Of a stretch of DNA of 42,636 bases, positions 19,559-37,539 are shown one piece after another. A program made the position numbers and the translations under genes. Within the stretch, counting starts at the first letter, position 1, and every line of letters starts with the position of its first letter. The notes beneath the pieces are model-generated. The model saw nothing but the letters and a program-made list of their open reading frames with translations, had not been told where the DNA came from and did not search any database. This DNA comes from a virus: positions 1-42,636 of IMG/VR virus record IMGVR_UViG_3300046507_000086. One strand, 5' to 3'.

Positions 19559-19704
19559 TGCTAGTCACCGCCCTGGTCCTCCTGGGCATGGTGATCATCG
19601 CAGTCGCTGGGATCGCCCTCTGCCTCAAAGCAAGCGAGAAGGTCTTCGATACGGCCTTCGATACCGATGAATACATGTGGGAAACCAAAGATGAACTTCG
19701 CTGA
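19558..19704 (+). CDS. Single-span membrane protein (48 aa)
   Basis: Residues 2-24 form one hydrophobic segment (LVTALVLLGMVIIAVAGIAL), followed by a charged cytoplasmic tail. Overlaps the stop before it and the start after it. Function unknown. Confidence 0.55.
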   Translation: MLVTALVLLGMVIIAVAGIALCLKASEKVFDTAFDTDEYMWETKDELR

Positions 19705-19882
19705 TCAAGAACGCCTGCAAGAAGCCCTCGTACTCGCAACCACCTTCGAAGCAACGGATGTAATCAGCCCTGCAGCTATGACTGTCCGAGTGCTTGCCAA
19801 GGAGTACCTGAAGGTGTGCCAAGAGTACGCATCAATTGAAGACCAACTGCAGGAGTACCTGCTGACCTCAGACCCATACTAG
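19691..19882 (+). CDS. Small helical acidic protein (63 aa)
   Basis: Starts inside the end of the previous gene. Almost wholly helical, with Gln/Glu/Leu repeats that could form a coiled coil (EYLKVCQEYASIEDQLQEYLL). No family recognised. Confidence 0.55.
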   Translation: MNFADQERLQEALVLATTFEATDVISPAAMTVRVLAKEYLKVCQEYASIEDQLQEYLLTSDPY

Positions 19883-19888
19883 GACCTA

Positions 19889-20329
19889 ATGAAAATCTGC
19901 ACTACCTGCGGAGAGACTAAAGCTGTTGAAGAGTTTAGCCGCAGGAGTGATACAGGTTCGTATCGGTCTTCGTGTAGGGCTTGCGTCAACGCTTCAAACC
20001 TCCTCCGTTATCACACCCGTCCAGACACAAAACACGCTCACCGCAAGGCTGCTCGTAAGTTTTCGTTAAAGAGGTACGGCCTAACTGTATCCGACTTCGA
20101 AAACATGTACGAGACCCAGGGCGGTCGCTGCGCTATCTGCTCCTCAGAGGTAGGCCACATCAACGACGAAGGTAAGTCAGCCTTCGTTGACCACTGCCAC
20201 ACCACGCTAAAGGTGCGGGCGCTCCTGTGCCAAGCATGCAATACAGGTCTCGGCCAATTCTCAGACAACCCCGCACGGCTCCGCGCTGCTGCTAACTACG
20301 TGGAACAACATGCGACAAGTACTCTTTGA
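19889..20329 (+). CDS. Endonuclease VII-family HNH nuclease, copy 1 (146 aa)
   Basis: N-terminal CTTCGETK and CRAC form one zinc-like pair set. The C-terminal half is the endonuclease VII core: CAICSSE, then FVDHCHTT with the catalytic Asp-His, then VRALLCQACNTGLGQFSDNP. T4 endonuclease VII resolves DNA junctions, but single genes of this family between phage genes often act as homing endonucleases. It lies between primase-helicase and DNA polymerase and overlaps the polymerase start by 20 bases. A paralogue is at 41119-41574. Confidence 0.88.
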   Translation: MKICTTCGETKAVEEFSRRSDTGSYRSSCRACVNASNLLRYHTRPDTKHAHRKAARKFSLKRYGLTVSDFENMYETQGGRCAICSSEVGHINDEGKSAFVDHCHTTLKVRALLCQACNTGLGQFSDNPARLRAAANYVEQHATSTL

Positions 20330-22208
20330 TTTGGAGACCGATGGTCTTCTGCAGGATGTCACCAAAATTCATTGCATCTCTGTGATGGATGTAGAGGATG
20401 AAAAGGTTCTTCGGTTCACCCCGGAGAACATCAAGGAAGGTGTTGCGTACCTTCAACAAGCTGCAGATGAGGGGATGCTCATAGGTCACAATATTATTTC
20501 ATACGACCTAGCGGTTATCGCCAAGCTGTACCCAGGGTTCACCGTGGATCGAACCAAGGTCCGCGACACCATCGTTGAGTCCCGCCTCTACTTTCCTGAC
20601 TTGCTGGTCCGTGATGGCTCCTACATCAAGGCTGGAGTGTTACCGACGAAGCGCGTAGGGTCCCATGCTCTCGAAGCCTGGGGCTACCGCCTCGGTCAGA
20701 TGAAGGGCGAATACTCAGGTGACTTTAAACAGAAGTGGATTGACGAACACAGCGAGTATCCATGGCTTGAGTATCTGGAGACCCTGACGCCAAAGATGGC
20801 CGCAAAGGCTATCGAGGATAAGGACAAGTGGATCGCTGCATGGGGCAAGGAGAACTACCCCTCAGGTCTCGAGTGGCAGACCTATACGGAAGCCATGGGT
20901 GACTACTGCGATCAAGACGTGATCGTTACTCGTGCTGTGATGCTCCACTTCAATTCGCTTACCTATGACCCTAGAGCACTCAAGCTAGAGCATCAGGTCC
21001 GCTGGTTCTGCTCGATGATGGAGCGCTCTGGTTTCCCGTTTGATGTTCAGGCTGCAGGGGCGCTCTACGCAACCCTAGCGGCGAAGCGTGAAGCTATCCG
21101 CGTCGAGATGATGGAGACGTTCCCTCCCTTGGTAATCGAGCGTGTCTCCGAGAAGACAGGTAAGCGCCTGAAAGACAAGGTCATTGAATTTAACCCAGGA
21201 AGCCGCGATCAGATCGCACAGCGGCTTACTACAAAGTACGGATGGGTGCCCAAGGTATTCACAGATGGTGGTAAGCCTCAGATCGATGAAACGATCCTGT
21301 CTAAGCTTGACTACCCTGAGGCGAAGCTCCTGTCTGAGTACTTCCTTTTGGAGAAACGTTGTGGGCAGCTTGGAGAAGGAAATCAGGCATGGCTCAAAGT
21401 TGAGCGGAACGGTCGTATCCACGGCTCAATCAATACCAATGGCGCTGTTACAGGTCGTTGCACCCATAGTTCCCCTAACCTCGGACAAGTGCCTAACGTG
21501 TCCTCTGAGTATGGACCGGAGTGTAGAGCCTTGTTTCATGCTGGTAGGGGATTCAAGCAAGTCGGGGCCGATTTGTCAGGCCTTGAACTACGCTGCCTTG
21601 CCCACTACATGGCACGTTGGGATGGAGGGGAGTACGGAGATGTTGTCCTAAATGGCGATGTTCATACGAAGAACCAAGAAGCTGCGGGCCTCCCTACTCG
21701 CAATGACGCGAAGACGTTCATTTACGCGTTTTTGTATGGCGCCGGAGACGAGAAGATTGGCTCCATCGTTGGCAAGGGCCGCGTTCAGGGTAAGAAGCTC
21801 AAGGAGAGGTTCCTCGAAGGTCTCCCTGCTTTGGGAAAACTCAAGAGCGCTGTTGAAAAGGCAGCGGACCGGGGACACCTGATTGGTCTTGACGGTCGTA
21901 AGGTCCCCATCCGTTCGAAGCACGCTGCTCTTAATACCCTCCTACAGGGCGCTGGTGCCCTTATCTCGAAGCGTTGGGTAGTTGAGGTCTTCGAAGAGGC
22001 GGAACGGCGAGGTTACGTCTATGGGCGCGACTGGTATCTGATGGCATATGTGCACGATGAAGTTCAGATGGCCGCTAAACCAGAGATCGCTGAAGGCTTC
22101 GGAAAGATGGCCGTTGAGTGTGCTCGGAAGGCGGGAGAGTTCTTTGACTTCAAGTGTCCTATCGATGCTGAATATAAGGTAGGAGATTCATGGCGTGACT
22201 GTCACTGA
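20310..22208 (+). CDS. Family A DNA polymerase with 3'-5' exonuclease, T7 gp5 type
   Basis: 632 residues (T7: 704). The exonuclease domain opens with LFDLETDGLL (catalytic Asp-x-Glu) and continues with NIISYDLAVI and YCDQDVIVTR. Polymerase motif A is GADLSGLELR. Motif B is around TRNDAKTFIYAFLYGAGDEK with the finger-helix Lys and Tyr. Motif C is AYVHDEVQM with the second catalytic Asp. In T7 this enzyme uses host thioredoxin for processivity; whether the binding loop is kept here was not judged. Confidence 0.96.
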   Translation: MRQVLFDLETDGLLQDVTKIHCISVMDVEDEKVLRFTPENIKEGVAYLQQAADEGMLIGHNIISYDLAVIAKLYPGFTVDRTKVRDTIVESRLYFPDLLVRDGSYIKAGVLPTKRVGSHALEAWGYRLGQMKGEYSGDFKQKWIDEHSEYPWLEYLETLTPKMAAKAIEDKDKWIAAWGKENYPSGLEWQTYTEAMGDYCDQDVIVTRAVMLHFNSLTYDPRALKLEHQVRWFCSMMERSGFPFDVQAAGALYATLAAKREAIRVEMMETFPPLVIERVSEKTGKRLKDKVIEFNPGSRDQIAQRLTTKYGWVPKVFTDGGKPQIDETILSKLDYPEAKLLSEYFLLEKRCGQLGEGNQAWLKVERNGRIHGSINTNGAVTGRCTHSSPNLGQVPNVSSEYGPECRALFHAGRGFKQVGADLSGLELRCLAHYMARWDGGEYGDVVLNGDVHTKNQEAAGLPTRNDAKTFIYAFLYGAGDEKIGSIVGKGRVQGKKLKERFLEGLPALGKLKSAVEKAADRGHLIGLDGRKVPIRSKHAALNTLLQGAGALISKRWVVEVFEEAERRGYVYGRDWYLMAYVHDEVQMAAKPEIAEGFGKMAVECARKAGEFFDFKCPIDAEYKVGDSWRDCH

Positions 22209-22458
22209 AATCCTTCAACGTGCCTGGACTTCCCCGTTCAGCGTCAAGAGCAACTTAGCTCGCGAGAGGGCCTCCGAGGTTGCCATGCTGGCTTCCTTGG
22301 GGCTCATTACAACACGGTTAGACGACGACACCTTCGGGGGCGTTTGGCTGATCACACAGAGAGGCTTGGATCAAATCCATGACCCAACCGAAAGTCGAGG
22401 TCGTCCCGTTTCTACTGGGAAACCTCTTGCACATCGCAGTAACCGTAGACGGAGTTGA
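22195..22458 (+). CDS. Possible winged-helix protein (87 aa)
   Basis: GTG start inside the last codons of the polymerase gene. Residues 15-60 look like a winged helix (SNLARERASEVAMLASLGLI, then GGVWLITQRGLDQI). The last 27 residues overlap the next gene in another frame and are basic. An early stop is absent, so both genes would share about 80 bases, which lowers confidence. Confidence 0.5.
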   Translation: MTVTEILQRAWTSPFSVKSNLARERASEVAMLASLGLITTRLDDDTFGGVWLITQRGLDQIHDPTESRGRPVSTGKPLAHRSNRRRS

Positions 22459-22633
22459 GTTCAACTTCGAGTCACATCTTCCGACAATCTTCAAGATCAC
22501 CGCTGAGTGTCTTGACCCGTACAACCAAGAGCACGAGAACGAAGGCTATTCCCTCATCTACGCGATGGAGGAAGGCATCCGTGCAATCAATGACCGCCTC
22601 GGTGCGGATGAACAGGAGTTTGCAAATGAGTAA
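22379..22633 (+). CDS. Small acidic protein (84 aa), unknown
   Basis: Beta-rich first half (VEVVPFLLGNLLHIAVTVDGVEFNF in alternating pattern) and a helical acidic second half. Its end overlaps the next start by 8 bases. No family recognised. Confidence 0.6.
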   Translation: MTQPKVEVVPFLLGNLLHIAVTVDGVEFNFESHLPTIFKITAECLDPYNQEHENEGYSLIYAMEEGIRAINDRLGADEQEFANE

Positions 22634-22991
22634 GTTTCAAGTTGGTGATCGTGTTGAGTTTGTCGAGATGTACCACGACCACCCTGTGGGTACCCAAGGG
22701 ACCATCTCTTACGTGGCTTCTGAACGAGACACAGAGGACGATTGGCTGGTTTCCGTGTCCCTCGATAGCGGCGATGAGTGTGGTGTCTACGACAAGCGCC
22801 TGAAGCTTGAGAAGACCTCGGAATTCCGCTTCCGCAACGAAGAAGGCTCATACAGCGCCGACAGATACCAGTCGTTCGAAGACGCCCTCGCAGGCTTCAA
22901 GGAACACTCGCGTGGCGAGAACGAAGCAGAGATCGTAGAGATCATCACCCATGGGAAGTATAAAGCTGTCCTGAAGATCGAGGCTGTCTAA
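22626..22991 (+). CDS. SH3-like small protein (121 aa), unknown
   Basis: The ATG is at 22626; a longer upstream frame crosses the preceding gene and is not used. Residues 1-60 resemble a small SH3/KOW-like barrel (FQVGDRVEFVEM, GTQGTISYV, DDWLVSVSLDSG). The second half is acidic and mixed. Its stop overlaps the exonuclease ATG. Function unknown. Confidence 0.6.
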   Translation: MSKFQVGDRVEFVEMYHDHPVGTQGTISYVASERDTEDDWLVSVSLDSGDECGVYDKRLKLEKTSEFRFRNEEGSYSADRYQSFEDALAGFKEHSRGENEAEIVEIITHGKYKAVLKIEAV

Positions 22992-23719
22992 TGCTCCTCC
23001 TGATTGACGCAGACATCCCTTGCTACCGTGCGGCATCCGCTTGCGAAACCGAGGTTGACTGGGGCGATGACGTCTGGTCGATCTATACGGACGTAGCGAA
23101 AGCCAAGGAACTCTTCGTAGGCTACATCGACAAGTTCATCGAGGACACCAAGTGCAGCGAGTTGAAGCTCTGCTACACCGCTCGAGACAACTTCCGCAAC
23201 GAGGTCTACCCGGCATACAAGGGTAACCGTAAGTCACGCAAGCCGGTTGGCTACGGGGCCCTGAAGGAATGGTCCAAGACCCTCTATCCGTTCTTCGAGA
23301 AGCCTACGCTGGAAGCTGACGACTGCATGGGCATCCTTGCCACGAAGTTCAAGGGCAAGACGATGATCGTGACGATGGACAAAGACCTCAAGACGATCCC
23401 AGGGACCCTTTGGCATCTCGACCAGAAACTCAACGGCAAGAAGCTTCAGGTATCCGAGAAGGACGCCTGGGCGTGGTTCTTGACCCAAGCTCTGACTGGT
23501 GATGTGACCGATGGGTTCCCTGGGTGTCCTGGGGTTGGCCCAGTGTCCGCGAAGAAACTCTTGGATTCCAAGGGGTACGTGTGGGAGACGGTCAAGCAAG
23601 CCTACATCAAAGCGGGCCTCACTGAAGAGGACGCACTAACCCAAGCTCGATGTGCCCGAATCCTCCATGAGAGTGACTGGGACTTCGAGAATAACCAAGT
23701 GAAACTATGGAACCCGTAG
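22991..23719 (+). CDS. 5'-3' exonuclease, T7 gp6 type
   Basis: 242 residues of the 5'-nuclease (FEN) superfamily. N-terminal LLLIDADIPCYRAA carries the first metal-binding Asp. YPAYKGNRKSRK matches the conserved basic helix that threads the 5' end, LEADDCMGILA the acidic pair, and TMDKDLKTIPG the next acidic cluster. A helix-hairpin-helix follows (DGFPGCPGVGPVSAKKLL). It removes primers and digests host DNA in T7. Directly downstream of the polymerase group, as in T7. Confidence 0.93.
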   Translation: MLLLIDADIPCYRAASACETEVDWGDDVWSIYTDVAKAKELFVGYIDKFIEDTKCSELKLCYTARDNFRNEVYPAYKGNRKSRKPVGYGALKEWSKTLYPFFEKPTLEADDCMGILATKFKGKTMIVTMDKDLKTIPGTLWHLDQKLNGKKLQVSEKDAWAWFLTQALTGDVTDGFPGCPGVGPVSAKKLLDSKGYVWETVKQAYIKAGLTEEDALTQARCARILHESDWDFENNQVKLWNP

Positions 23720-24198
23720 AACGTCCGTATTCAGGCCCTGCAATGGGTCACCCGCTACCCGCCCTGCGTCCCCCGTTCCCAATGTATCCCGGCTTCATCA
23801 ACCCTGAGGGAGACGCGAAGAGTCTTAAGGACATCACGTTCTCCCCGCAGCCTACGTCGCTAAACCAGAACCCGCAGTTGTGCGCGAGTCTTTCTGAAGG
23901 AACCAAGCACGACTCTGGCAAAGCCCGCATGTCCCTCTTGGACTCTTCGTGGCTCCTCGGGGTCGCTGAGGTCCTTGGGTTCGGTGAGAAGAAGTATGCA
24001 GCCCACAACTGGCGCAAGGGCCTCTCTGTGTCACGCCTGATGGATGCTGCAGCACGTCACCAAGCAGCCTTCAATGACGGTGAGGACCTGGACCCTGAGT
24101 CGGGCAAGAGTCACCTGTACCACGCTTCGTGCTGCCTCATGTTCGCAAGCTGGATGATCAAGAACCGTCCTGACCTCGATGACCGATTCAAGGGCTAG
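23707..24198 (+). CDS. dATP/dGTP diphosphohydrolase-like protein (DUF5664 type)
   Basis: 163 residues. A Pro-rich, poorly conserved N-terminus (about 1-70) precedes a compact helical domain: KHDSGKARMSLLDSSWL, GFGEKKYAAHNWRKGLSVSRL, ARHQAAFNDGEDLDPESG and LYHASCCLMFASWM. This matches the phage family annotated as dATP/dGTP diphosphohydrolase N-terminal domain. Such proteins probably adjust dNTP pools, and the related MazG-like gene lies 0.3 kb downstream. It overlaps the exonuclease end by 13 bases. Activity on a particular nucleotide is inferred from the family. Confidence 0.75.
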   Translation: MEPVERPYSGPAMGHPLPALRPPFPMYPGFINPEGDAKSLKDITFSPQPTSLNQNPQLCASLSEGTKHDSGKARMSLLDSSWLLGVAEVLGFGEKKYAAHNWRKGLSVSRLMDAAARHQAAFNDGEDLDPESGKSHLYHASCCLMFASWMIKNRPDLDDRFKG

Positions 24199-27174: not shown

Positions 27175-27204
27175 ACCCCTACCCTCCAAGGTGGGGGTTT
27201 TTTT
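27175..27204 (+). terminator. Terminator closing the replication arm
   Basis: A 9-pair stem (27175-27183 with 27190-27198, one T-G pair) around CTCCAA, followed by seven T. It separates the preceding operon from the recombinase promoter. Confidence 0.85.
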
Positions 27205-27215
27205 CATACATAAGC

Positions 27216-27244
27216 TTGCACAGCACTACACACTGCGTTATAGT
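27216..27244 (+). promoter_or_regulatory. sigma70 promoter of the recombinase gene
   Basis: TTGCAC, a 17-base spacer and TATAGT, 38 bases before the ATG and right after a terminator. The recombinase can therefore be expressed by the host independently of the phage RNA polymerase. Confidence 0.7.
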
Positions 27245-27282
27245 CCTACCTACACCAACACGGAACACCGAGGAGACCCCAA

Positions 27283-28083
27283 ATGAAAGCACGGAAGACA
27301 CCGAAGACGCTCAAGGAACTCCTCGAGGTATCCAAGCGTCCCCTGTGGGCCGGTAAGGCTTACTGCACGACCGCAATCACGAACGTTGAGCACTTCATCA
27401 ACGCGGTGGGTGACGTAGAGTTGACCGCGATCCGCACGACCACTTTGGATGACTTCGTGGACGATATGCAGGCCAAGGGTCTCTCTGACGCGACGATCAA
27501 CAGAAAGCTGACGAACGTTCACTCGATGCTGAAGTACGCAGTGGATCGGGAGTGGATGGTGAAGATGCCGAAGTTCTCGTGGAAGCGCGAGGAGAACCAA
27601 AGGGTGCGCTGGGTTTCCGAGAAGGAAGAGGACCAGATGTTTGCCCTGCTGGACCAGTGGGGTGAGACCGAAGTGAAGCGCTTCCTGACTGTACTGATGG
27701 ACACGGGTATGCGCCGTGGGGAGTTGCTGAAGCTGGAAGCCAAGGACATCCAGGGTGACTGGGTGCGCCTCTGGGTCACGAAGACGAAGCAGGCCCGCTC
27801 GGTTCCCCTGTCGGAGAGAGCCAAGGGGGCCCTGGGGGATAAACCCTTTGATCTGACGATTGGTCAACTCCGTATCGTGTGGGCGAAGCTGAAGAAAGAG
27901 ATGGGTCTGGAGGCCGACGATGACTTCGTTCTGCACACTCTTCGGCACACTGCAGCGACACGGACGCTCGCCAAAACTGGCAACATCGCCATCGTTCAGA
28001 AGCTGTTGGGACACCGGAATATCCAGACGACCATGCGGTATGCCCATTTGTCTGATGAAGAACTTCTTGCCGCTGTTAAATAA
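27283..28083 (+). CDS. Tyrosine recombinase (integrase/resolvase, 266 aa)
   Basis: The N-terminal SAM-like core-binding domain covers about 1-100, and the catalytic domain follows. All active-site residues are visible: Arg144 in TGMRRGELL, a beta-turn Lys near 167-169, His218-x2-Arg221 (HTLRHT), His244 (LLGHRNI) and the nucleophile Tyr253 (MRYAHL). Such enzymes integrate phage genomes or resolve plasmid dimers. At 266 residues, with no added arm-binding domain, it is short, nearer to XerC/D-like resolvases in size. No attachment site could be identified. Its proximity to the par-rep block makes dimer resolution a real alternative to integration. Confidence 0.93.
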   Translation: MKARKTPKTLKELLEVSKRPLWAGKAYCTTAITNVEHFINAVGDVELTAIRTTTLDDFVDDMQAKGLSDATINRKLTNVHSMLKYAVDREWMVKMPKFSWKREENQRVRWVSEKEEDQMFALLDQWGETEVKRFLTVLMDTGMRRGELLKLEAKDIQGDWVRLWVTKTKQARSVPLSERAKGALGDKPFDLTIGQLRIVWAKLKKEMGLEADDDFVLHTLRHTAATRTLAKTGNIAIVQKLLGHRNIQTTMRYAHLSDEELLAAVK

Positions 28084-28189
28084 ACGATACATTGGCATCT
28101 TTTACTACACACAACAGTGAACAAAGGTCTTACAATCACTCTCGTTGTGTAAGGAAGTAACAACCTGTAACTGGAATTGACCAAATAAA

Positions 28190-28378
28190 ATGAACCTCGT
28201 CGCCACCCTCTCCAACGGCACCACCCTCCACCTTCGCGCAAACCAGGGGAAGTTTCTCCTGACGCAGGACAGCACCGTCAACTTCATTTACTTATCCCTC
28301 GAAGATGCTCTGGAAGACTTCAACGCCTTTGTGGCTGGTGGGGAACAAAGTTATGCCGAAGGGGTTGCAGTTTATTAA
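28190..28378 (+). CDS. Small protein (62 aa), unknown
   Basis: Beta-rich start (LVATLSNGTTLHLRANQGKF) and an acidic helix after it. Upstream lies a short inverted repeat (ACACAAC near 28105, GTTGTGT near 28145) that could be a regulatory site. No family recognised. Confidence 0.55.
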   Translation: MNLVATLSNGTTLHLRANQGKFLLTQDSTVNFIYLSLEDALEDFNAFVAGGEQSYAEGVAVY

Positions 28379-28393
28379 ACAATTCTGTACAGT
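28365..28393 (+). promoter_or_regulatory. sigma70 promoter before the RHH-like gene
   Basis: TTGCAG, a 17-base spacer and TACAGT, partly inside the end of the previous gene and 36 bases before the next ATG. Confidence 0.6.
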
Positions 28394-28429
28394 AGCTCCA
28401 TACACAACACATATAAGAGGGGGTTTGAG

Positions 28430-28717
28430 ATGTCGAACACGGAACAGAAGCTTGCCGAAGCTCTTGCAATGATCGAGCGGCTTCAAGAGGAAAAGCGGTT
28501 GGAAGCCATCAAGGCCGCTAAGTACCCGTGGCAGAACCCAGAGACCGTGGCGAGTCAAAACCGAATGAGCTACAACCTGAAGGTAGAGCCAGAGCTTTAC
28601 CTGAAGATACAGTGGCTCATGGAGAACAAAGGTGGCATCAAGTCAATCCAGAAGTTCTTCGAGAAGGCGGGCAACATGCTGGCCGATGTGTACCTAGAGG
28701 AACTGGACGCCAAGTGA
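28430..28717 (+). CDS. Ribbon-helix-helix-like DNA-binding protein (95 aa)
   Basis: Residues 1-30 form a charged coiled-coil helix. From about 45 a strand (MSYNLKVEP) and two helices (ELYLKIQWLMENKG, IKSIQKFFEKAGNMLADVYL) match the ribbon-helix-helix layout of plasmid and phage repressors. It has its own host-type promoter beside the recombinase and par-rep genes. That makes it a candidate regulator of copy number, partition or quiescence. The target site is unknown. Confidence 0.6.
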   Translation: MSNTEQKLAEALAMIERLQEEKRLEAIKAAKYPWQNPETVASQNRMSYNLKVEPELYLKIQWLMENKGGIKSIQKFFEKAGNMLADVYLEELDAK

Positions 28718-28787
28718 GTGGGGCTTTCCTCGAAAACCAGCATTAAGTGCAACGCTGATAATAGGGATTAGCAGGTAAGGACAAAAC

Positions 28788-29036
28788 ATGGAAAAGCAAC
28801 TTACCCGGACATGGAATATTGAACTACAGGACCGCGACGGGGACGGTTTCATCAAGTTCTCTGGGGCCCCTGAAGAGTTCTCAGGCTGCTCGATCACCCT
28901 GCGCGACCATATGGACAGAGAGGTGGTCGCTGATATGGACAACAGTCAGCTTCTAACTTGGTGCGAACGGGTTTCTGCCTACTTGCGCGGCGAGGGTGTT
29001 GTAGGGAGTTCCGAGGGCATCGCGCAGCACCGGTAA
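28788..29036 (+). CDS. Small acidic protein (82 aa), unknown
   Basis: Begins just before the partition repeats. Acidic, with a strand-rich centre (RTWNIELQDRDGDGFIKFSG) and no recognised family. Its stop lies 7 bases before the first parS-like palindrome. Confidence 0.55.
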   Translation: MEKQLTRTWNIELQDRDGDGFIKFSGAPEEFSGCSITLRDHMDREVVADMDNSQLLTWCERVSAYLRGEGVVGSSEGIAQHR

Positions 29037-29041
29037 AGATT

Positions 29042-29146
29042 TACCAAGAAATCTTGGTTTCTCTCTTGGTTTCTCTCTTGTTTTCTTTCTTGATTACTTT
29101 ATTCTTTCCAAGAAACCAAACAAACAACCAAGAAATCTTGGAGGAA
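29042..29146. repeat. parS-like centromere/operator repeats before parA
   Basis: Two identical 14-base dyads CCAAGAAATCTTGG at 29044-29057 and 29128-29141, with several half-sites of CCAAGAAA or TCTTGG between them in both directions. The second dyad touches the GGAGG ribosome site of parA. This layout fits a partition site that also represses the par operon. More half-sites lie inside the following gene (29867-29920). Confidence 0.78.
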
Positions 29147-29148
29147 CC

Positions 29149-29793
29149 ATGAGAACAATAGTCTTCTCCTGTCTCAAAGGCGGGAGCGGCAAGACCACCC
29201 ACTCGGCACACTTCGCGGTAGCTTTGGAGGCCATGGGGAAAGGACCAGTGGTGACCATGGATTTGGACCCTCAGGGGTCTTTTTCCGCTTGGTGGAACGA
29301 CCGTAAGGAACTGACGCCCGCCTTCGCACCCGTAGTGGCTGCAGAACATCTCACGAAGAAGCATGAAGAGATGAAGGCCCTGGGGTACCTCTGGTGCATC
29401 ATCGATACTCCCCCGATGGACCATGAGATCAATCGGATGGCGATCAAGCTGGCCGATCTGGTCGTGATTCCAGCCAAGCACTCTCCGCACGACATCCGAG
29501 CAGCAGCCACCACCGTCGCCCTGTGTGAGGAGGAGCACAAGAAGTTCTTCTTCCTACTCAATGAGACCAACGGGAAAGCTGTGTCTCTCACGGCCACCAG
29601 AAGGCTCGCTGCAATGGGCCCTGTGATTCCCCACGCCGTTCCCAAGCTCAATGGGTACTGGGAGAGCATGATCGATGGCCGGACCTTCCAGGAAATCAAC
29701 AGAGGGACTGGGGCGATCATTATTGATGACGTGGCGATCTTCCTAGTCGGTCAATTCGAGAAGCCTATTCGTCAGGAGAAAGCTCATGCCTAA
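29149..29793 (+). CDS. parA: ParA-type partition ATPase (214 aa)
   Basis: Deviant Walker A motif KGGSGKTT at residues 10-17 with the signature first Lys, then VVTMDLDPQGSFSAWW (Walker A') and WCIIDTPPMD (Walker B). The length and lack of an N-terminal helix-turn-helix place it with the small type Ib ParA/ParF/Soj group. These ATPases move plasmid copies along the nucleoid. Coupled by an 8-base overlap to the next gene, a likely ParG/ParB partner, and preceded by parS-like dyads. A plasmid-type gene in a T7-like phage. Confidence 0.94.
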   Translation: MRTIVFSCLKGGSGKTTHSAHFAVALEAMGKGPVVTMDLDPQGSFSAWWNDRKELTPAFAPVVAAEHLTKKHEEMKALGYLWCIIDTPPMDHEINRMAIKLADLVVIPAKHSPHDIRAAATTVALCEEEHKKFFFLLNETNGKAVSLTATRRLAAMGPVIPHAVPKLNGYWESMIDGRTFQEINRGTGAIIIDDVAIFLVGQFEKPIRQEKAHA

Positions 29794-30094
29794 GGGTTCC
29801 CTGGATATGCTCGCGCTCCCCAAGGGTGTCGCTGCCAAGGGGGAAGCAAATCCTGCAAGTTTGGAATCAAGAAACCAAGAAACAAAACAAGAAAATAACC
29901 AAGAAAGAAAGAAACCTTGGGACGGCCATGACACCTGGATCAAGGTGAACTACGAGGTCCCTGAGAGGGTCCAGATGAAGCTACAGCACCTCAAGGCGTC
30001 CCGGAGGATCAGGAACTTCAGAGAGTTCGTTCCAGCGGCTCTGGAGGCTGCTCTGGACGCTGCGATAGCCCAGGCCGAGCAGGAGGGCTACTGA
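29786..30094 (+). CDS. ParG/ParB-like centromere-binding protein (102 aa)
   Basis: The N-terminal 45 residues are flexible and rich in Gln, Glu, Asn and Lys. The C-terminal part (strand WIKVNYEVP, helix ERVQMKLQHLKASRR, helix FREFVPAALEAALDAA) has the ribbon-helix-helix form of ParG-type partners. In these systems the flexible N-terminus stimulates the ParA ATPase and the C-terminus binds parS. The flexible part is encoded by DNA that itself repeats the CCAAGAAA half-site. Its stop overlaps the ATG of the replication gene (TGATG). Assignment rests on context and fold pattern. Confidence 0.75.
   Translation: MPKGSLDMLALPKGVAAKGEANPASLESRNQETKQENNQERKKPWDGHDTWIKVNYEVPERVQMKLQHLKASRRIRNFREFVPAALEAALDAAIAQAEQEGY
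29867..29920. repeat. parS-like half-sites inside the partner gene
   Basis: Four CAAGAAA units (29868, 29876, 29888 and 29900, counting from the CAAG) and an inverted CCTTGG at the end, coding for the Gln/Glu/Lys-rich linker. The same word makes up the dyads before parA. Confidence 0.6.
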
Positions 30095-30666
30095 TGGGAG
30101 ACGACATTCGACAGATCGATCTGTTCCAGGCTGAGACCACTTGGTTCCATATCTTCAGTTCAATGGTCAACAGCGGGGACGCAGGGAAGCTGGGGGGCAA
30201 CGCCTTCCTGATCTACTGCATCATCAAGGGGCACACGAACTTCAAGACCGGCAGAGCATTTCCGTCCATTGATGCAATCGTAGAGAAGGCACGCCTGTCT
30301 AAGTCCCAGGTGCTACGCGAGCTAGATACCCTCGAGGACGCGGGCTATATCACCCGAACCAAGGAAGGGAGGAAGAACGTCTACACCCTCCGTGAGAAGG
30401 TAGGGATCACCGACGAGAAGGGACGGCCTGTTGCAGACGCAACGTGGGACTATGTGCCAGATGGTGTGAAAGGGGCCGTGGCTGACATCAGGAACGTGGT
30501 TATGTCCGGAGACTTCGACGGTGCCAAGATCATCAAGATCGAGAATCTGACCGTGAACTACTTCAGAGACCACTCCTCCCAATGGAACATGCAGTCCCTC
30601 CTGGAGAACATGGACAAGCTGACGCCGGAGATGAAAGCAATGCTCTTGAAGAACCTGAAACTATAG
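30094..30666 (+). CDS. Plasmid-type replication initiator (190 aa)
   Basis: Residues about 35-105 form a winged helix (GKLGGNAFLIYCIIKGH, then FPSIDAIVEKARLSKSQVLRELDTLEDAGYI in parts, then a basic wing RTKEGRKNVYTL), as in plasmid Rep and RepL-like initiators. The C-terminal half is helical and less conserved. It is coupled to the partition partner gene. Its stop codon lies within the first of a row of direct repeats (iterons), followed by an A/T-rich tract and a DnaA box. Gene order and repeats together make an initiator the best reading; a plain transcription regulator is the alternative. Confidence 0.8.
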   Translation: MGDDIRQIDLFQAETTWFHIFSSMVNSGDAGKLGGNAFLIYCIIKGHTNFKTGRAFPSIDAIVEKARLSKSQVLRELDTLEDAGYITRTKEGRKNVYTLREKVGITDEKGRPVADATWDYVPDGVKGAVADIRNVVMSGDFDGAKIIKIENLTVNYFRDHSSQWNMQSLLENMDKLTPEMKAMLLKNLKL

Positions 30667-30766
30667 GTGTCACCTGCGATACGTGTCACCCGTGCGACTT
30701 GTCCCTGTTTAATAGGTGTCAGGCATGGAACCTATTCGGGGGGTATAGGTGTCACCCAAGACACCC
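30663..30766. repeat. Iterons of a plasmid-type origin
   Basis: Direct repeats of ATAGGTGTCACC: 30663-30674 (exact), 30679-30690 (one change), 30712-30723 (two changes) and 30745-30756 (exact). A degenerate copy lies near 30695 and an inverted core GACACC at 30760-30765. Starts are 16 or about 33 bases apart, near multiples of one to one and a half helix turns. Such repeats bind the initiator encoded directly upstream. Confidence 0.85.
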
Positions 30767-30825
30767 TAACGATATAGATTAAACCTTAACGATAGAAGTC
30801 CCGTAGAGTCTCACCCTGTGGATAA
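30767..30825. other. Candidate replication origin: A/T-rich tract and DnaA box
   Basis: An A/T-rich tract (30767-30797) contains the direct repeat TAACGATA twice and could be the unwinding region. TGTGGATAA at 30817-30825 is the exact complement of the consensus DnaA box TTATCCACA. The combination with iterons is the classic layout of theta plasmid origins. Confidence 0.8.
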
Positions 30826-30838
30826 CTAGAGGACCACC

Positions 30839-30955
30839 ATGCACACCTGTCGATTCTCCGTACGAATCTCTGAATACCAAGGTTCCCCTCTGTACGAGTG
30901 CGTGCTCTGTGGTGTGATGAGATGGCGTGAAAAACTGTACGAACCGTTGCATTAA
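30839..30955 (+). CDS. Tiny Cys-containing protein (38 aa)
   Basis: AGAGGA precedes the ATG, and the stop lies in the start of a terminator. YECVLCGVM gives one Cys-x2-Cys pair, and another Cys lies at residue 4, so a small metal site is possible. Function unknown. Confidence 0.5.
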   Translation: MHTCRFSVRISEYQGSPLYECVLCGVMRWREKLYEPLH

Positions 30956-31005
30956 AAAAGACCCCTCAGGGAACCCATAACGGGAACCTTGAGGGGTCTT
31001 TTTGT
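30956..31005. terminator. Two-way terminator between the converging arms
   Basis: Long inverted arms (AAAGACCCCTCA near 30957-30968, TGAGGGGTCTTT at 30990-31001) with further inner pairing, flanked by A on the left and T on the right. It stops the rightward par-rep transcript and the leftward late transcript. Confidence 0.92.
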
Positions 31006-31533: not shown

Positions 31534-32064
31534 TTATGAAAGAAGTGTGGCCTTGGATACCTTGAGGCGAGCTTGACGATCCTCGAGACCGTTGGTTCCG
31601 CCATTGATACGCTTGGTGAGACCGAGGACATCGTCGGCCAGTGCTAGGGCCCCGCAGCGGTTGTCTTGCCAGAACTGACACGCACTGAGAGCAGCGTTGC
31701 CGGGTTCTTCCAACAGTTCGGGGTGGTTCACACAGTCAATGCCGAGCTTGCCCGCAGCCCTGACGTAGTTGGCCCTTCCGGTCGTCTGGAGGAGCCCACG
31801 GCCCATGTAGCGCTTCCCATCGCCAGCTACGGTGTTCCCGAGGTCCTTGCGCCCCTCATAGCGTGCCTGGGTGGGCGTAGGGCCCCAGAGTTCCTTGGTG
31901 TAGACGAAGCCACCTGATTCGTGGCCTACCTGTGCTAACCAGTGAGCCACCTCAAGGGGTGCTGAGATGCCATAGAGAGCCAATGCGGCACTAACCGGAT
32001 CAGCCCATTTCTGTGCTCTTGAGAGTGGAACACCAGTCGCCTTTGCGAAAACTTCTGGTGTCAT
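31534..32064 (-). CDS. GH19-type endolysin (176 aa)
   Basis: Glycoside hydrolase family 19 fold, as in chitinases and many lysins of phages of Gram-negatives. HWLAQVGHESGGF holds the catalytic Glu49, and Glu58 nine residues on is the second acid. GRGLLQTTGRANY is the conserved substrate-cleft motif, with further family marks in NHPELLEEPGNAALSACQFW. It degrades peptidoglycan at the end of infection. No signal peptide, so export needs a holin; candidates lie on both sides. Confidence 0.93.
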   Translation of the reverse strand: MTPEVFAKATGVPLSRAQKWADPVSAALALYGISAPLEVAHWLAQVGHESGGFVYTKELWGPTPTQARYEGRKDLGNTVAGDGKRYMGRGLLQTTGRANYVRAAGKLGIDCVNHPELLEEPGNAALSACQFWQDNRCGALALADDVLGLTKRINGGTNGLEDRQARLKVSKATLLS

Positions 32065-32297
32065 TAGAGTCCCGCGAGCTTCTTGACGATCTCACCGATC
32101 CCGAAGGTCTGTGCAGCCATTACTAAGGCTCCACCATAGACGGCGTACTTGATCTGAAGAAGGTTCTTTTCGATTGCAGATACAACACTGGCTGTGTTCT
32201 TCTGTTCTACTTTGATATCCTTCACATCAGTCTCAGTAGCGTCCTGACGAAATTCAAGCGCGGTGACCCGATGCTCGAGTGAGTTGAGAGGAGACAT
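32064..32297 (-). CDS. Coiled-coil membrane protein, XhlA/holin-like (77 aa)
   Basis: An N-terminal charged coiled coil (about 5-45) is followed by one hydrophobic segment (about 50-67) and a short basic tail. This is the layout of XhlA-type lysis proteins and of some small holins. Its stop overlaps the endolysin start, so the two are made together. It is probably part of the lysis cassette. Confidence 0.6.
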   Translation of the reverse strand: MSPLNSLEHRVTALEFRQDATETDVKDIKVEQKNTASVVSAIEKNLLQIKYAVYGGALVMAAQTFGIGEIVKKLAGL

Positions 32298-32300
32298 CGA

Positions 32301-32456
32301 TTACATCACAGCCGGGAGGCCAGGGAGTTCGTTGCCTTCCTGGAGCCAGCGAAGGAAGGTTTGGAAGTCGGTGTTGCGGAAGTCCGGGGGGATCGAAGCG
32401 TTGTCCGAGGTGCGGAGGAGGATGGGGCCGAAGAAGCCTTCTTGAAGTTCGTACAT
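32301..32456 (-). CDS. Small protein between fibre and lysis genes (51 aa)
   Basis: A 51-residue frame filling the gap between two late genes, with a strong coding look (YELQEGFFGPILLRTSDN, then FLRWLQEGNELPG). Small proteins of this kind often follow fibre genes in phages. Function unknown. Confidence 0.6.
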   Translation of the reverse strand: MYELQEGFFGPILLRTSDNASIPPDFRNTDFQTFLRWLQEGNELPGLPAVM

Positions 32457-32471
32457 GAGTGTCCTTGAGGT

Positions 32472-34178
32472 TTAAAGTTCAGCGTTGAACATGAAATCGA
32501 CAGCGCCTGCGTTTGTGAAGTAGGCCGCGCCTCCTGTGGTACCGCCTGTGCCTGCGAGGTTCAGGCTCCATGCTGTGGGGCTGTTGGCAGCAATCAAACC
32601 GCCTGTGTTCCAAGTACCTGCCCCTGCATAGGTGATGCCCGCACTCAACGAGCAAGCTGGCGTCGCACGCATAGGTGTTTCAAAGGTGCTCATCATGTAG
32701 GCTGTCGTTGCACTTGCAGCAAAGCCCGAGAGCGAGAAGCCCGCACCGAAGCTGATCTTTCGCCAGTAGCGCTTGCAGAGGTCCAACTCCTGGCCGACAG
32801 GGCGGCGAAGGAAAGGAGTAGCAACCGATCCTGCCTCCAACTGCAGTTCAGAAACCGCAATGAAGTTGTTGATCGTGGATGCCCAGTTGGTATTCCCCGA
32901 TGCCGTGATCCTGTTCGATGCTTGCCATGCATTGAGCGTGGCTGCTTGGTACGTGGCTGTGTTGAGAGCGCCAATCGAGAGGTAGAGTCCAGCGCTGGAG
33001 TTGTTCGCAACAGAGAGACCCGTACCCAGCGAAGACACTGGGATGACTACGGCCTTCGGTGTATTGGCGACAGCGTTGAATGTCGAGACGAATGAGTTGT
33101 TATTCGCGCCATCACGAAGGGCAACCGAGAACTGACCCGTAACGTTCGAATTGAACAGGAACGAGATGGTTGCAGGACCACCGAGGAGGTCATAGACGTT
33201 CGCACCTTCGTAGACCTGGGTAATCCCAAGCCACCCGTTGGTGGTGCCCGCAGTCGTCAGAACCGTGTTGACCGTCTGAACCACTGCAGGACGCGAGATA
33301 CCGCCATAGGTCATAGTCCCTGCGGACTGCGTGAACTGTCCACCAGGGGACCCGAAGATCATTGCCCAGAACCGATCGACTCCACCGTAGCCTGAAGGTG
33401 TCCCTGAGTTGATAACGATTGACGCCTTCTGTTGAATACGGCAACATCCATTGATCGTTCGATTACGACCAGCAAGGTAAGCAGTCTGGTTCGTGGTCAG
33501 GAGTGCCGAAGCAGCCGCAGCGTTCTGGCTTGCGAGGGCAGCAGCAGCACTAGTGGACGCATTACCAGCCTGCGTGGTGGCGGTGCCTGCCTGAGTCGTT
33601 GCAATGCCAGCTTGGGTCGTTGCGGTTCCTGCTTGGGTCGTCGCAATGCCAGCCTGAGTGGTAGCCGTGGATGCCGAGGTACCCGCATTGGCCTCTGAGG
33701 TCCCTGCGGCATTCTTTGAAGCTAGCGCGGCTGCAGCTTGGGTAGTCGCAATGCCAGCCTGGGTCGTGGCAATGCCCGCTTGCGTGGTTGCCGTGGTTGC
33801 CGAAGCTGCCACTGCGGATTCACTAGCACTTGCATTGGATGCCGAAGTGTTCGCAGATGTTGCCGCCGAGGATGCTTCTGCTGCCTTGGTTGTAGCTGTA
33901 GAAGCCGCAGCGGTTGCGGTAGAAGCTGCAGTGTTCGCGACACTGATTGCGGTGTTGGCCTGAGCCAGCGTATCGTTAGCCTGCTGTGCGAGGATAGCGA
34001 CGTTTGCTTCGGAGATCGCAGCGTTGGATGCCGCAGCAGTGGATTGAATGGCAGCAGCAGTAGCCTCGGAAGCCGAAGCGGTAACTGTGGCAACCTGAGC
34101 GGTAAGCTCGTCAATCAGTTCATCCGTGCTGTTGATCTCCGGGGGAACTACAGTCCCGTTGAAGAAAGACGTGGTCAA
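32472..34178 (-). CDS. Tail fibre / receptor-binding protein (568 aa)
   Basis: Residues 1-150 are rich in Ala, Ser and Thr and helical. About 125-225 is low-complexity, with many copies of the unit TTQAGIA or TTQAGTA, likely a thin trimeric shaft. The C-terminal 330 residues are a beta-rich globular domain (RNRTINGCCRIQQKAS, YGGVDRFWAM, QLEAGSVATPF, CKRYWRK) of a type frequent in phage fibre tips. It starts one base from the adaptor gene. Likely recognises the host surface. Confidence 0.85.
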   Translation of the reverse strand: MTTSFFNGTVVPPEINSTDELIDELTAQVATVTASASEATAAAIQSTAAASNAAISEANVAILAQQANDTLAQANTAISVANTAASTATAAASTATTKAAEASSAATSANTSASNASASESAVAASATTATTQAGIATTQAGIATTQAAAALASKNAAGTSEANAGTSASTATTQAGIATTQAGTATTQAGIATTQAGTATTQAGNASTSAAAALASQNAAAASALLTTNQTAYLAGRNRTINGCCRIQQKASIVINSGTPSGYGGVDRFWAMIFGSPGGQFTQSAGTMTYGGISRPAVVQTVNTVLTTAGTTNGWLGITQVYEGANVYDLLGGPATISFLFNSNVTGQFSVALRDGANNNSFVSTFNAVANTPKAVVIPVSSLGTGLSVANNSSAGLYLSIGALNTATYQAATLNAWQASNRITASGNTNWASTINNFIAVSELQLEAGSVATPFLRRPVGQELDLCKRYWRKISFGAGFSLSGFAASATTAYMMSTFETPMRATPACSLSAGITYAGAGTWNTGGLIAANSPTAWSLNLAGTGGTTGGAAYFTNAGAVDFMFNAEL

Positions 34179-34790
34179 TTAATACTCCGTGTCGTATGCA
34201 GGTTCAATAGCCATCGTTCCTTGATCCATGTCCGTCATCCGGCCCTGCTCCTCGATCTCATCCTTCAGGGATGCGTAGCGCTTCTCGAAGAAATCAATGC
34301 GGTCATCCACGAAGTAATCCGCAGCGAAGCAAAGGGCACCGTAGATAAGGAGGTCTGAACAGATGAGGCTGAAGACGTTTGAGTCGGTGTCAGCGAGGAG
34401 AGCAGGCTGCGTGGCGTAGTACCACATGTAGACAAGCTCACCTTCAGCCAACGTGGGCTTCAATAGGTACGAACTGCCGACACGCGTATAGACCGTGGAA
34501 CTCCCTGTCTGGGGAATCGGAAGGAACGTGTTGAGGTCCTTGTAGACCAAGGGACCCTTGAGGGTGTACAGCGATTTGAGACTCAGGAAGTCCGTGGGGA
34601 TGACTATGGATTCCGTGGGTACGTCAGGAGCGTTGCCTGTTACTGTTCCGATCTTTTCCATCCCCGGAATGCGGAGGACGCGTTCAATACGGGACTGGGC
34701 GAGATCGATGAAGTCGTTCGCAATATCATCCGTACAGTCGTTTCGATTGAGCAGCTTGAGGACCTTCGTGCGGACTTGTGCGCGATTCAT
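34179..34790 (-). CDS. Head-tail adaptor, tail tubular protein A type (203 aa)
   Basis: 203 residues, the usual size of T7 gp11. A helical start (RAQVRTKVLKLLNR, ANDFIDLAQSRIERVLRIPGME) and later VYMWYYATQPALL and YGALCFAADYFVDDRIDFFEKRY match podoviral adaptor proteins that join portal and tail. Its start overlaps the upstream gene by one base. Fold and context agree; no catalytic role expected. Confidence 0.8.
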   Translation of the reverse strand: MNRAQVRTKVLKLLNRNDCTDDIANDFIDLAQSRIERVLRIPGMEKIGTVTGNAPDVPTESIVIPTDFLSLKSLYTLKGPLVYKDLNTFLPIPQTGSSTVYTRVGSSYLLKPTLAEGELVYMWYYATQPALLADTDSNVFSLICSDLLIYGALCFAADYFVDDRIDFFEKRYASLKDEIEEQGRMTDMDQGTMAIEPAYDTEY

Positions 34791-35083
34791 TAGAGAGCCT
34801 TGGAGGTCGTGACGAAGTAGTCCATGCCTTCAGCTTTGAGCTTGGCAACGATGCGTTTGGCCGACTCGTTATAAAAGTCGAAGCCTTCTTTCATCCATTT
34901 TTCAATGAGGACTACGGGGATTGATGCGACTCGCATGTATTCGCCTTCACGGCCTTCCATGGAGGCCCCTCGTTCCGCCTTGAGGCGATCAACGAAGGAC
35001 GTGGGGATATGCTGAACACGCTCGATGATGTGCCCATCAGTGTTGGACGTAAGCGTGTTGTGGGTATCGAGAATGTTTTGCAT
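34790..35083 (-). CDS. Late protein of unknown role (97 aa)
   Basis: Lies between the capsid terminator and the adaptor gene. Mixed helical protein, with a basic middle (VDRLKAERGASMEGREGEYMRV) and an amphipathic end. It may be a head completion factor. No family recognised. Confidence 0.55.
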   Translation of the reverse strand: MQNILDTHNTLTSNTDGHIIERVQHIPTSFVDRLKAERGASMEGREGEYMRVASIPVVLIEKWMKEGFDFYNESAKRIVAKLKAEGMDYFVTTSKAL

Positions 35084-35089
35084 GGACGT

Positions 35090-35127
35090 AAAAAAGCCCC
35101 ACTGGCGGAGAGTGTCACCAGCAGGGC
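35090..35127 (-). terminator. Terminator downstream of the major capsid gene
   Basis: On the minus strand GCCC and CTGG pair with CCAG and GGGC across a small internal loop, followed by six T. It would limit read-through from the highly expressed capsid gene, as the terminator after gene 10 does in T7. Confidence 0.75.
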
Positions 35128-35218
35128 GAAAAGGAATGAGGAGGAGCCCCGAAGGGCCCCAAGAGGGGGTGCTGGCACTAAGCGGGGATTCCTCCCCAAG
35201 TTCACCAGCGGTTGATGC

Positions 35219-36154
35219 TTACGGCAAGGTGGGGTTAGCGCCCGTCAGGCCGATGATTGCGCCCGATGCGCCGTAGTTGGCGTGCTTGAAGCCGAACTCA
35301 CCAACGATCTGACGGCGGCTCGAGTCACCCGTAACGGCCAGGACCGTCGAGGTGAACGGACGCAGCGTAGCCAGCTTCCAATTCTTCGGGTCGAACACGA
35401 GGGCCGAGTCAGCCTTCATGAAGCGGTTGATCACGACCTTCTGCTCACCGAACGGCGAGACGTAGAGATCGACCACGTTGACGATGGCCTTCTCAGCACC
35501 GAAGTCACGCATACGGCCAGCAGCAGCCGAGAAGCCAGCCACGATGAGCGAGTCAGCGGGCTTGATCATGATGATCGTAGCTTCACCGCCATTCTCATAC
35601 AGCTTCTGGTTTACCGACAGAACGTCAGCTTCAGCCAGAGCAGCCGGGGTGGCCGTCTTGTCGATGGTCACGTTCGCGTTGATCAGCTTCACCGAGTTGG
35701 TGTCAGCGCCCCACACGTTACCGAACTTACGGGCAACAGCTTCGCCACCGAGGGCCGCGTTCTGTGCGATACCGACGAGGTGGTATTCGACTTCGCGCTT
35801 CAGTTCAGCCGACTTCTTCGACATCTGGTATGCCGTTTCTTTGGCGCGACCGTACGTGCTGATTGCGTCAGCCGTGTTCGAAACCTTCACAGTCTTCTGG
35901 AAGATTTGGGTCGTGTTGGCACGCATCACGGTCGGGCTCAACGTGCTATCTACTGCGTCTGCACCTTCAACCACAGCGTTCGTTGCGACTGCAGCGAGGC
36001 TGTCTTCTTGCCATTGGTACAGCGTGTTGCTGACTTTGTCGCCCTTGATCAGCGTCTGAAACGGGGTCAACGTAGGCGTCAGGTTGCTGATGACATCGCT
36101 GACATCTTCCTTCTTGCCAACTTGGTCGTACGTCTTGAATGCGGTTGCGCTCAT
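35219..36154 (-). CDS. Major capsid protein, SU10/DUF5309 type (311 aa)
   Basis: Opening TYDQVGKKEDVSDVISNLTPTLTPFQTLI and later NTLYQWQEDSLAAVATNAVVEG (given in parts) match the SU10-type HK97-fold capsid family rather than T7 gp10. RANTTQIFQKTVKVSNTADA, MSKKSAELKREVEYHL and DLYVSPFGEQKVVINRFM are further family segments. It follows the scaffold gene and precedes a terminator, as expected for the main shell protein. Confidence 0.9.
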   Translation of the reverse strand: MSATAFKTYDQVGKKEDVSDVISNLTPTLTPFQTLIKGDKVSNTLYQWQEDSLAAVATNAVVEGADAVDSTLSPTVMRANTTQIFQKTVKVSNTADAISTYGRAKETAYQMSKKSAELKREVEYHLVGIAQNAALGGEAVARKFGNVWGADTNSVKLINANVTIDKTATPAALAEADVLSVNQKLYENGGEATIIMIKPADSLIVAGFSAAAGRMRDFGAEKAIVNVVDLYVSPFGEQKVVINRFMKADSALVFDPKNWKLATLRPFTSTVLAVTGDSSRRQIVGEFGFKHANYGASGAIIGLTGANPTLP

Positions 36155-36241
36155 GGTATTGCTTTCCTTGATGGAGTGAATGTGAGATTAGGGCCTGAGG
36201 GTGCCAAGGGTGGCGGTAGGTGGCCCTAGGGATACTGCGGA

Positions 36242-37279
36242 TTACTCGCTATCTGCCCAACGGGACAGGAAGAGGTCTGCTGCGTCATCGGTGGAGCCCG
36301 AGGACTTCAACTTCGTCATTGCCTTCTGATTCTTTTCAACCTTCACGTCGCGGCTTGTGACCTGCTTGGTGGTCTTGAGAACCTTCGAGGCGGTAACGAC
36401 CTTCTTCTTGGTGGTCACAACCTTCTTCGCCTTGTCGAACTGCATCGCCTTATGGATCATCTGGATCGCATTCGGGTCAACAAGGGAGTTGATCGCTTCT
36501 GCAGGCATGCCCTTTTCGATTGCGTACGTACGCAGTTCGTTATAGACAGTCTGGTTCCACCCGGGGATAGCTTCTTTCAGGACCTTGACTGCTTCCTTCG
36601 CCTGGGCATCAATCTGTGCCTTACGCGTGGCGTTCGCTTCCTTCACGAACGTGTCAACTTCCTGGGTGACGAATTGGAAGTCCTCATAGGCTGCTGCGGC
36701 TTCAGCACGGAGAGCGGTGAACTCTTCGGTGCTCAGTTCCTTGCTTGCCAACAGCATGTCAACCTTCGAGTACGGTTCCCAACGGGTCTTCACCTTGTCA
36801 TAGATGCGTTCCAGTTGTGCAGCCGCTTTCTCGTTGGCAGCGTCGAGACGTTTCTGATCGTCTGCGACCTTCTGTGATTTCTTCGTGAGTGAAGCCTCTT
36901 GTCCAAAGAGGCGCTTCAAGTCTTTAACGGATACCTCGTGCTCCTCGTCACCGACCTTAACCTTGACCTTCGCGTCATCCTTCAGGGAACCCTTAGGCTC
37001 CTCTTCGGTTGACTCTTCTTCGTCATCGGTTTCATCTTCGGCTTCGTCGTCGCCCGTTTCTTCAGGGTCCGTATCGTCCTCGTCGCTCGACTCTTCTTCA
37101 TCGTCGGCTTCGTCTTCGGTGGATTCCGACTCGTCATCGGTTTCTACCTCTTCTTCCTCAGGTGCCTCGGATACCTTCTCAGGGTCCTCATCACTCCATC
37201 GGTTGAGAAATTCGTTTGCTGCGTCATCTTCGGTATGGAGGATGGCGCTATCGACGCCCTCTTGGGTGGTCGTGGTCAT
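36242..37279 (-). CDS. Scaffolding protein (345 aa)
   Basis: The first 110 residues are extremely acidic (runs of Asp, Glu and Ser), the middle is a long charged helix (about 130-250), and the end is basic (KKVVTTKKKVVTASKVLK). This is the usual pattern of phage scaffolds, which hold the capsid protein during assembly and then leave. Directly upstream of the capsid gene and downstream of the portal group. Confidence 0.85.
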   Translation of the reverse strand: MTTTTQEGVDSAILHTEDDAANEFLNRWSDEDPEKVSEAPEEEEVETDDESESTEDEADDEEESSDEDDTDPEETGDDEAEDETDDEEESTEEEPKGSLKDDAKVKVKVGDEEHEVSVKDLKRLFGQEASLTKKSQKVADDQKRLDAANEKAAAQLERIYDKVKTRWEPYSKVDMLLASKELSTEEFTALRAEAAAAYEDFQFVTQEVDTFVKEANATRKAQIDAQAKEAVKVLKEAIPGWNQTVYNELRTYAIEKGMPAEAINSLVDPNAIQMIHKAMQFDKAKKVVTTKKKVVTASKVLKTTKQVTSRDVKVEKNQKAMTKLKSSGSTDDAADLFLSRWADSE

Positions 37280-37287
37280 GTGTTTGT

Positions 37288-37533
37288 TTACTCTTCAGTT
37301 GGTGTAAGAAGCTGGGTCTTTGCGTTGATCCAGCTTTGGAGTTCTGCGGCGATGTCCTGGAGTGCTCGGATTTGGTAGAAGCGCTGCTCGCGTTTCACTG
37401 TGTCTCCTAGGGCACTGCCGGTGATCTCCGTCGTGTATTGGTTGAATAGCTCGTTCACGGCGACTGTGAAGGCTTCCGTTGCCAGAAGCTCCTCAGCAGC
37501 CAGTCCGCGTTTGAGCGTGAGTTCTTCGCTCAT
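37288..37533 (-). CDS. Small helical late protein (81 aa)
   Basis: Fits between portal and scaffold with gaps of 6 and 8 bases. Helical and acidic (RGLAAEELLATEAFTVAVNELFNQ, QIRALQDIAAELQSWI). Small proteins at this place in podovirus head operons are common; role unknown. Confidence 0.65.
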   Translation of the reverse strand: MSEELTLKRGLAAEELLATEAFTVAVNELFNQYTTEITGSALGDTVKREQRFYQIRALQDIAAELQSWINAKTQLLTPTEE

Positions 37534-37539
37534 GGGGGT

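Follow-up and report, generated by a model that had tools for sequence, protein, structure and literature searches.

How does a phage whose RNA polymerase and replisome are of the T7 type come to carry what looks like a complete plasmid maintenance block, and does this block keep the phage in its host? The question is raised by a stretch of 42,636 bases (the IMG/VR virus record IMGVR_UViG_3300046507_000086, here called the window), in which an earlier note, made from the letters alone, had described a parA gene, a partner gene, a replication initiator, iterons and a DnaA box, and had proposed that the phage persists as a low-copy plasmid. Our analysis makes it quite likely that the stretch 29041-30955 works as a low-copy plasmid replicon complete in itself, by which the podophage would persist as a circular prophage outside the chromosome, and we regard the phage as very probably a plasmid prophage. 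The block does not sit at an assembly joint, as it was found at the same place in two relatives from other metagenomes: G002, a 45.6-kb circular permutation of the window with about 90% DNA identity, and, at lower identity, G001.

That the block maintains a prophage is supported most strongly by its exchange for an integrase in close relatives. G016 and the circular assembly G020, whose RNA polymerases are 92% and 82% identical to that of the window, have the same flanks and are devoid of parA and the initiator. Instead, they encode a DUF6538-type integrase of 430-462 amino acids between the gene for a 95-amino-acid protein and a shared bidirectional terminator (30954-31004, matched on the minus strand), which forms the right boundary of the exchanged module and is conserved in both genomes just downstream of the integrase. 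An integrase also takes the place of the block in three further contigs (L074, L075 and L078), the last of which comes from the same metagenome (3300047315) as the replicon-type G002 and L067 and encodes an endolysin with 93% identity to the one in the window. Because the whole segment is replaced by an integrase in such close relatives, we consider the locus to be the lysogeny-maintenance slot of this lineage. The slot integrase is preceded by a 24-base sequence (GTTGGACGCATCTCCTGGGCACCA) that is identical in two otherwise divergent spacers and is a candidate attP of the integrase-type relatives; no tRNA overlapping it was found in these genomes. In the RNA polymerase tree, the replicon-type G001 is placed beside the integrase-type G020 (support 0.998), which suggests that the exchange probably happened more than once rather than as a single old event. 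The lineage therefore seems able to swap its mode of persistence in the host.

The block, encoded on the plus strand, begins with a partition system. The parA gene (29149-29793) specifies a ParF-type Walker ATPase of 214 amino acids with the KGGSGKTT motif described in the earlier note (PHROG 164, E=7e-29; AAA_31, E=4e-13; MipZ), and the solved structures closest to it are those of ParA (5u1g) and of ParF, a plasmid protein (4dzz). The protein begins at the Walker A region and thus has the short form without an N-terminal DNA-binding domain that defines type Ib. The adjoining gene (29786-30094) encodes a ParG-like partner of 102 amino acids, for which the alignment and an AlphaFold model suggest a disordered N-terminus (residues 1-38) and a ribbon-helix-helix (RHH)-type C-terminal domain with a strand-helix-helix arrangement over residues 51-99. 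The predicted local distance difference test score of this model averages only 62, with values of 70-87 over the C-terminal half, and the partner returned no Pfam or family match on its own and no structural match in the PDB; the equivalent gene of L067 matches HicB/RHH. Hence, of the RHH partner proposed earlier, the gene itself is present and its fold is suggested by a model of modest confidence and by the L067 equivalent.

Two repeat clusters accompany these genes. Upstream of parA lies an array of CCAAGAAA and TCTTGGTTTCTC (29041-29141, plus strand), a candidate centromere and operator, and a second cluster of the same repeat (29865-29916, plus strand) is found inside the coding sequence of the disordered linker of the partner. 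Five of the six copies of CCAAGAAA in the 42.6 kb fall in the array before parA and in the partner gene. The repeats before parA differ between loci, and most loci carry their own motif again inside the partner gene, as seen for C(C/T)TAGAAA in L002 (4/4 copies) and for CCAAGGAA in L003, L004, L006 and L008; L009 and L013 fit this pattern less well. The linker amino acids of the partner vary with the motif (NQE, NLE or TKE), suggesting that the candidate centromere array may extend through the partner coding sequence. Taken together, the parA gene, the RHH-type partner and the repeat arrays are the partition components by which phage-plasmids are recognized.

The third gene of the block (30094-30666) encodes the winged-helix replication initiator, 190 amino acids long, which is supported by HTH_36 (E=2e-11), several replication-initiation PHROGs and a structure model. 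A structural search returned generic winged-helix proteins only, and homologs of the initiator are present on plasmids pA29BJ2 and pRBH2-3. The open reading frames of parA, partner and initiator overlap (29786 < 29793; TGATG at 30094) and are therefore translationally coupled, so that 29149-30666 forms the single operon that had been described. Behind the initiator, four copies of the iteron TATAGGTGTCACC start at 30662, 30678, 30711 and 30744 (spacing 16, 33 and 33; 30662-30756, plus strand), and the best 8-mer occurs three times, a count that none of 200 shuffles reached. They are followed by the DnaA box TGTGGATAA at 30817-30825 (minus strand, where it reads TTATCCACA), the sole perfect one in the window. 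All 12 tested virus loci with the block, including the window, have one or two perfect DnaA boxes within 300 base pairs behind rep; no perfect box was found in the integrase-type G016 and G020. DnaA boxes are present in L006 and L072, in which the repeat test alone was not significant. Thus, parA, initiator, iterons and DnaA box were all found as the earlier note had read them.

Based on this arrangement, we propose that the winged-helix initiator would bind the iterons behind its own gene and, together with host DnaA at the adjacent box, would start replication in step with the host cycle. Segregation of the copies would fall to ParA and the RHH-type partner, acting on the repeats before parA and inside the partner gene, while a small tyrosine recombinase encoded upstream would probably resolve multimers or circularize the genome. 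The initiator and origin of this candidate phage-plasmid are recognized by sequence, and the virion, packaging and lysis genes (capsid, portal, terminase and endolysin) are on the same molecule, as they are in G002.

Comparison of the replicon-type loci shows that the initiator, with its iterons, and the partition genes reassort independently of each other. In the comparison with G002, identity is 99% for the initiator but drops to 82% for ParA and 48% for the partner; with G001 it is 92% for ParA and 75% for the partner but 27% for the initiator. L067 and L069, which come from other metagenomes and are more divergent (64% identity to the window for the DNA polymerase, 71% for the capsid), combine the same initiator type (81%) with a different ParA (25%) and a partner matching HicB/RHH. 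As in iteron replicons, the repeated sites lie beside rep and change in sequence with the initiator type: an AGGTGTC-type iteron is found in the window, G002, G012, L067 and L070, AGCGTTAC in G001 and G008, and CCAGCGGC in G007. Such separate swapping of initiator with iterons and of partition genes with centromere is expected if plasmid incompatibility drives their divergence.

The search of phage and plasmid databases that the earlier note had suggested revealed homologous cassettes well beyond this lineage. ParA proteins 72-82% identical to that of the window are encoded by the N4-like phages G003 and G012, which were assigned by a 3616-amino-acid open reading frame plus 39 shared genes and by a virion RNA polymerase (E=0), respectively, and by the podophages G007 and G008 of a third type. 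The replicon of G007 is immediately followed by a gene for an O-acetyltransferase (L030 10526-11605), which is a possible lysogenic conversion gene. A more distant complete three-gene cassette with its own repeats and DnaA boxes is present on the conventional Polaromonas plasmid pA29BJ2, and another is carried by pRBH2-3 of A. baumannii, a 75-kb circular plasmid that consists of an entire N4-like phage and matches vB_IME_Ab2712, known as a free phage, with 99% identity over 13 kb. This pair of records is the best outside evidence that a cassette of this class maintains a podophage as a plasmid. On balance, we give an even chance to the broader view that podophages usually thought to be lytic, be they T7-type in their RNA polymerase, N4-like or of the third type, share a circulating replicon cassette, that this cassette takes the integrase slot in the T7-type lineage, and that initiator and iterons are swapped separately from ParA, partner and centromere, the centromere running through the partner frame and dictating its disordered linker.

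Several observations weigh against a plasmid prophage. The fold of the partner comes from a model of low confidence that has no match in the PDB, no repressor was recognized, and the region behind rep in pRBH2-3 contains neither a perfect DnaA box nor a significant repeat. In addition, a scan of GTDB genomes for the window RNA polymerase and parA, using two short peptide patterns each, revealed no host genome. The window is also linear, and about 2.2 kb of G002 are absent between its two ends (42636 / 1), so that the full genome probably measures about 45 kb. The proposed low-copy plasmid persistence is borne out with respect to a phage-borne maintenance block with full replicon anatomy, its exchange for an integrase and its plasmid homologs; the function of the block, autonomous replication and a low copy number are what we infer. 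The further idea of the earlier note, that the phage would enter the lytic cycle by turning on its own RNA polymerase, is a conjecture.

Among the alternatives, the one that fares best, yet appears improbable to us, is a strictly lytic phage in which the block is plasmid-derived cargo, disturbing resident plasmids for example by initiator or centromere competition, or a passing insertion. The remaining genome, with no repressor found, does resemble that of a lytic podophage, and T7-like cyanophages are reported to bear integrases and to integrate without stable lysogens (PMC8776855); however, cargo would hardly be expected to occupy one locus with intact frames in several lineages, to be swapped there with an integrase and not with other, unrelated genes, to keep iterons and DnaA boxes that match its initiator, and to have a homologous cassette on a plasmid record that is a complete N4-like phage. 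We regard it as still less probable, and indeed very unlikely, that the block serves in lytic growth and not in lysogeny, as an auxiliary origin and DNA-handling system that draws on host factors to boost genome copying, since this would account for the position of the phage's own replisome directly beside the block and leave unexplained its replacement by an integrase, its partition genes and its presence in the conventional plasmid pA29BJ2. That the contig is a phage/plasmid chimera, as a linear contig without end repeats might suggest, has a negligible chance and is refuted by G002, G001 and L067/L069, which all come from other metagenomes. We therefore favor the plasmid prophage.

The left flank of the block is shared by both types of relatives. 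All features described here are on the plus strand. An intrinsic terminator (27175-27205; a 9-pair stem followed by a T run) closes the upstream early region and is conserved in position in G002, G016, G001, G020 and L067. It is followed by a consensus match to a sigma-70-like promoter (27217-27244), both hexamers of which lie within blocks conserved across six family members; the promoter scan, taken alone, does not exceed chance. This putative promoter precedes the gene for a tyrosine recombinase of 266 amino acids (27283-28083; Phage_integrase PF00589, E=4e-25), the recombinase that had been noted beside the block, which is common to replicon-type and integrase-type genomes (G002, G001, G016, G020, L067, L074 and L075). 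That it is the lysogeny integrase was rejected as the main reading because relatives with a second, larger integrase in the slot retain the small one; its role is more probably multimer resolution or genome circularization. Further downstream are genes for a positionally conserved protein of 62 amino acids (28190-28378; 100% identical in G002, with a positional homolog in G016) and for the 95-amino-acid RHH-like protein (28430-28717), which has homologs in G002, G001, G016, G020 and L067 and is 32% identical to the partner gene product of pA29BJ2. Being present in both types of relatives, this protein is a candidate regulator and, together with a palindrome-rich region at 12250-12340, a candidate lead for how the phage is regulated. 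An open reading frame of 82 amino acids (28788-29036) has no homolog among the relatives and falls within a stretch absent from G002 (alignment gap 28786-29065).

The block is located between the DNA-copying genes and the virion genes. On the plus strand, the T7-type single-subunit RNA polymerase (12651-15152; PHROG 414, E=2e-182) is followed at 15413-24198 by five T7-type replisome genes for a single-stranded DNA-binding protein (gp2.5), endonuclease I, primase-helicase, DNA polymerase and exonuclease, along with thymidylate synthase, in agreement with the earlier note. The minus strand carries the virion genes in two regions, 0.2-6 kb and 31.5-42.1 kb, the second of which (31534-42107) comprises the endolysin, tail fiber, capsid, scaffold, portal and terminase genes. 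The portal (PHROG 1216) and capsid (PHROG 1328) match LUZ24/phiEco32-type and related podophages, and the term T7-like is therefore limited to transcription and replication: the genome has the RNA polymerase and replisome of Autographiviridae, the T7 family, but not T7-type virion genes. Palindromic motifs (ACCTTAGGT, ACCCTAGGT and GGGTATACCTTAGGTAACC) cluster at 12250-12340 upstream of the RNA polymerase gene; they are partly kept across the family, have similar counterparts near 6222, 7734 and 8809, and are operator candidates. No phage-promoter consensus emerged among repeated 20-mers, which were mainly coding repeats, par repeats and some palindromes, and an Rfam search gave no match. Elsewhere, the window encodes an ArdA-type antirestriction protein (7209-7718; PF07275), a gene typical of plasmids, and two neighboring minus-strand tail-fiber genes (4712-5992) that both match PHROG 5795, likely a tandem duplication. 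G002 has a minus-strand tRNA-Tyr gene (L020 2384-2470) that is missing from the window.

How does this system compare with known ones? Cluster A mycobacteriophages are siphophages that infect Actinobacteria and have no T7-type RNA polymerase. In RedRock, Miko and others, parABS replaces the integration cassette at a co-linear position, so that, as here, a minority of a temperate group carries a partition/replication module at the integrase position of its relatives, in some cases with a RepA initiator (PMC7157519). The exchange described here parallels theirs, although the ParA/ParB type differs, and repA of the RepA phages is oriented opposite to parABS whereas the initiator gene here belongs to the same coupled operon as parA and the partner gene. 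Classical phage-plasmids (P1, N15, SSU5 and AB groups) likewise have genes for plasmid replication and partition within a phage genome. However, the well-defined groups are sipho- or myophages (PMC11652158), in contrast to the present podophage, whose RNA polymerase and replisome are T7-type. The pair vB_IME_Ab2712/pRBH2-3 has a homologous parA-partner-initiator cassette on a podophage (parA 32%, initiator 37%) and differs in belonging to Schitoviridae, with an N4-gp56 capsid and a 10.9-kb coding sequence of virion-RNA-polymerase size, in its Acinetobacter host and in having no clear iterons or DnaA box behind rep. Two circular plasmids in PLSDB are possibly unrecognized phage-plasmids: pCFD-1-5 (L064) of Sphingobium, with a T7-type RNA polymerase, phage structural genes and no annotated partition gene, and pVPan1 (L063) of Vibrio panuliri. 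Like the window, the latter encodes an RNA polymerase and a replisome of the T7 type along with capsid genes, and its tyrosine recombinase shares 32% identity with the one described here; it differs in encoding ParM rather than ParA, in having no perfect DnaA box and in its virion genes. The partition genes themselves are similar to parFGH of TP228 (type Ib), where a short ParF-like ParA (4dzz) is followed by a small RHH-type protein and preceded by upstream repeats, but the second repeat cluster inside the partner gene and the coupling of an initiator to the operon set the present system apart.

Finally, these findings bear on how podophages persist. Metagenomic phage-plasmids with ParA/ParB and an integrase were reported earlier (PMC4490671), and the general kind is thus known; our literature search, of partial coverage and hence weak evidence of absence, found no description of a T7-type or N4-like phage-plasmid. 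T7-like cyanophages are likewise T7-type phages with a site-specific recombinase, for which transient integration without stable lysogeny is reported in a paper whose abstract describes no replicon block of the present kind (PMC8776855), so that stable lysogeny by phages with a T7-type RNA polymerase is an unsettled question. One podophage lineage with both solutions, integrase or replicon, in the same slot makes this question directly testable and constitutes a natural experiment on integration replaced by partition. If true, podophages would join the groups that move plasmid genes.

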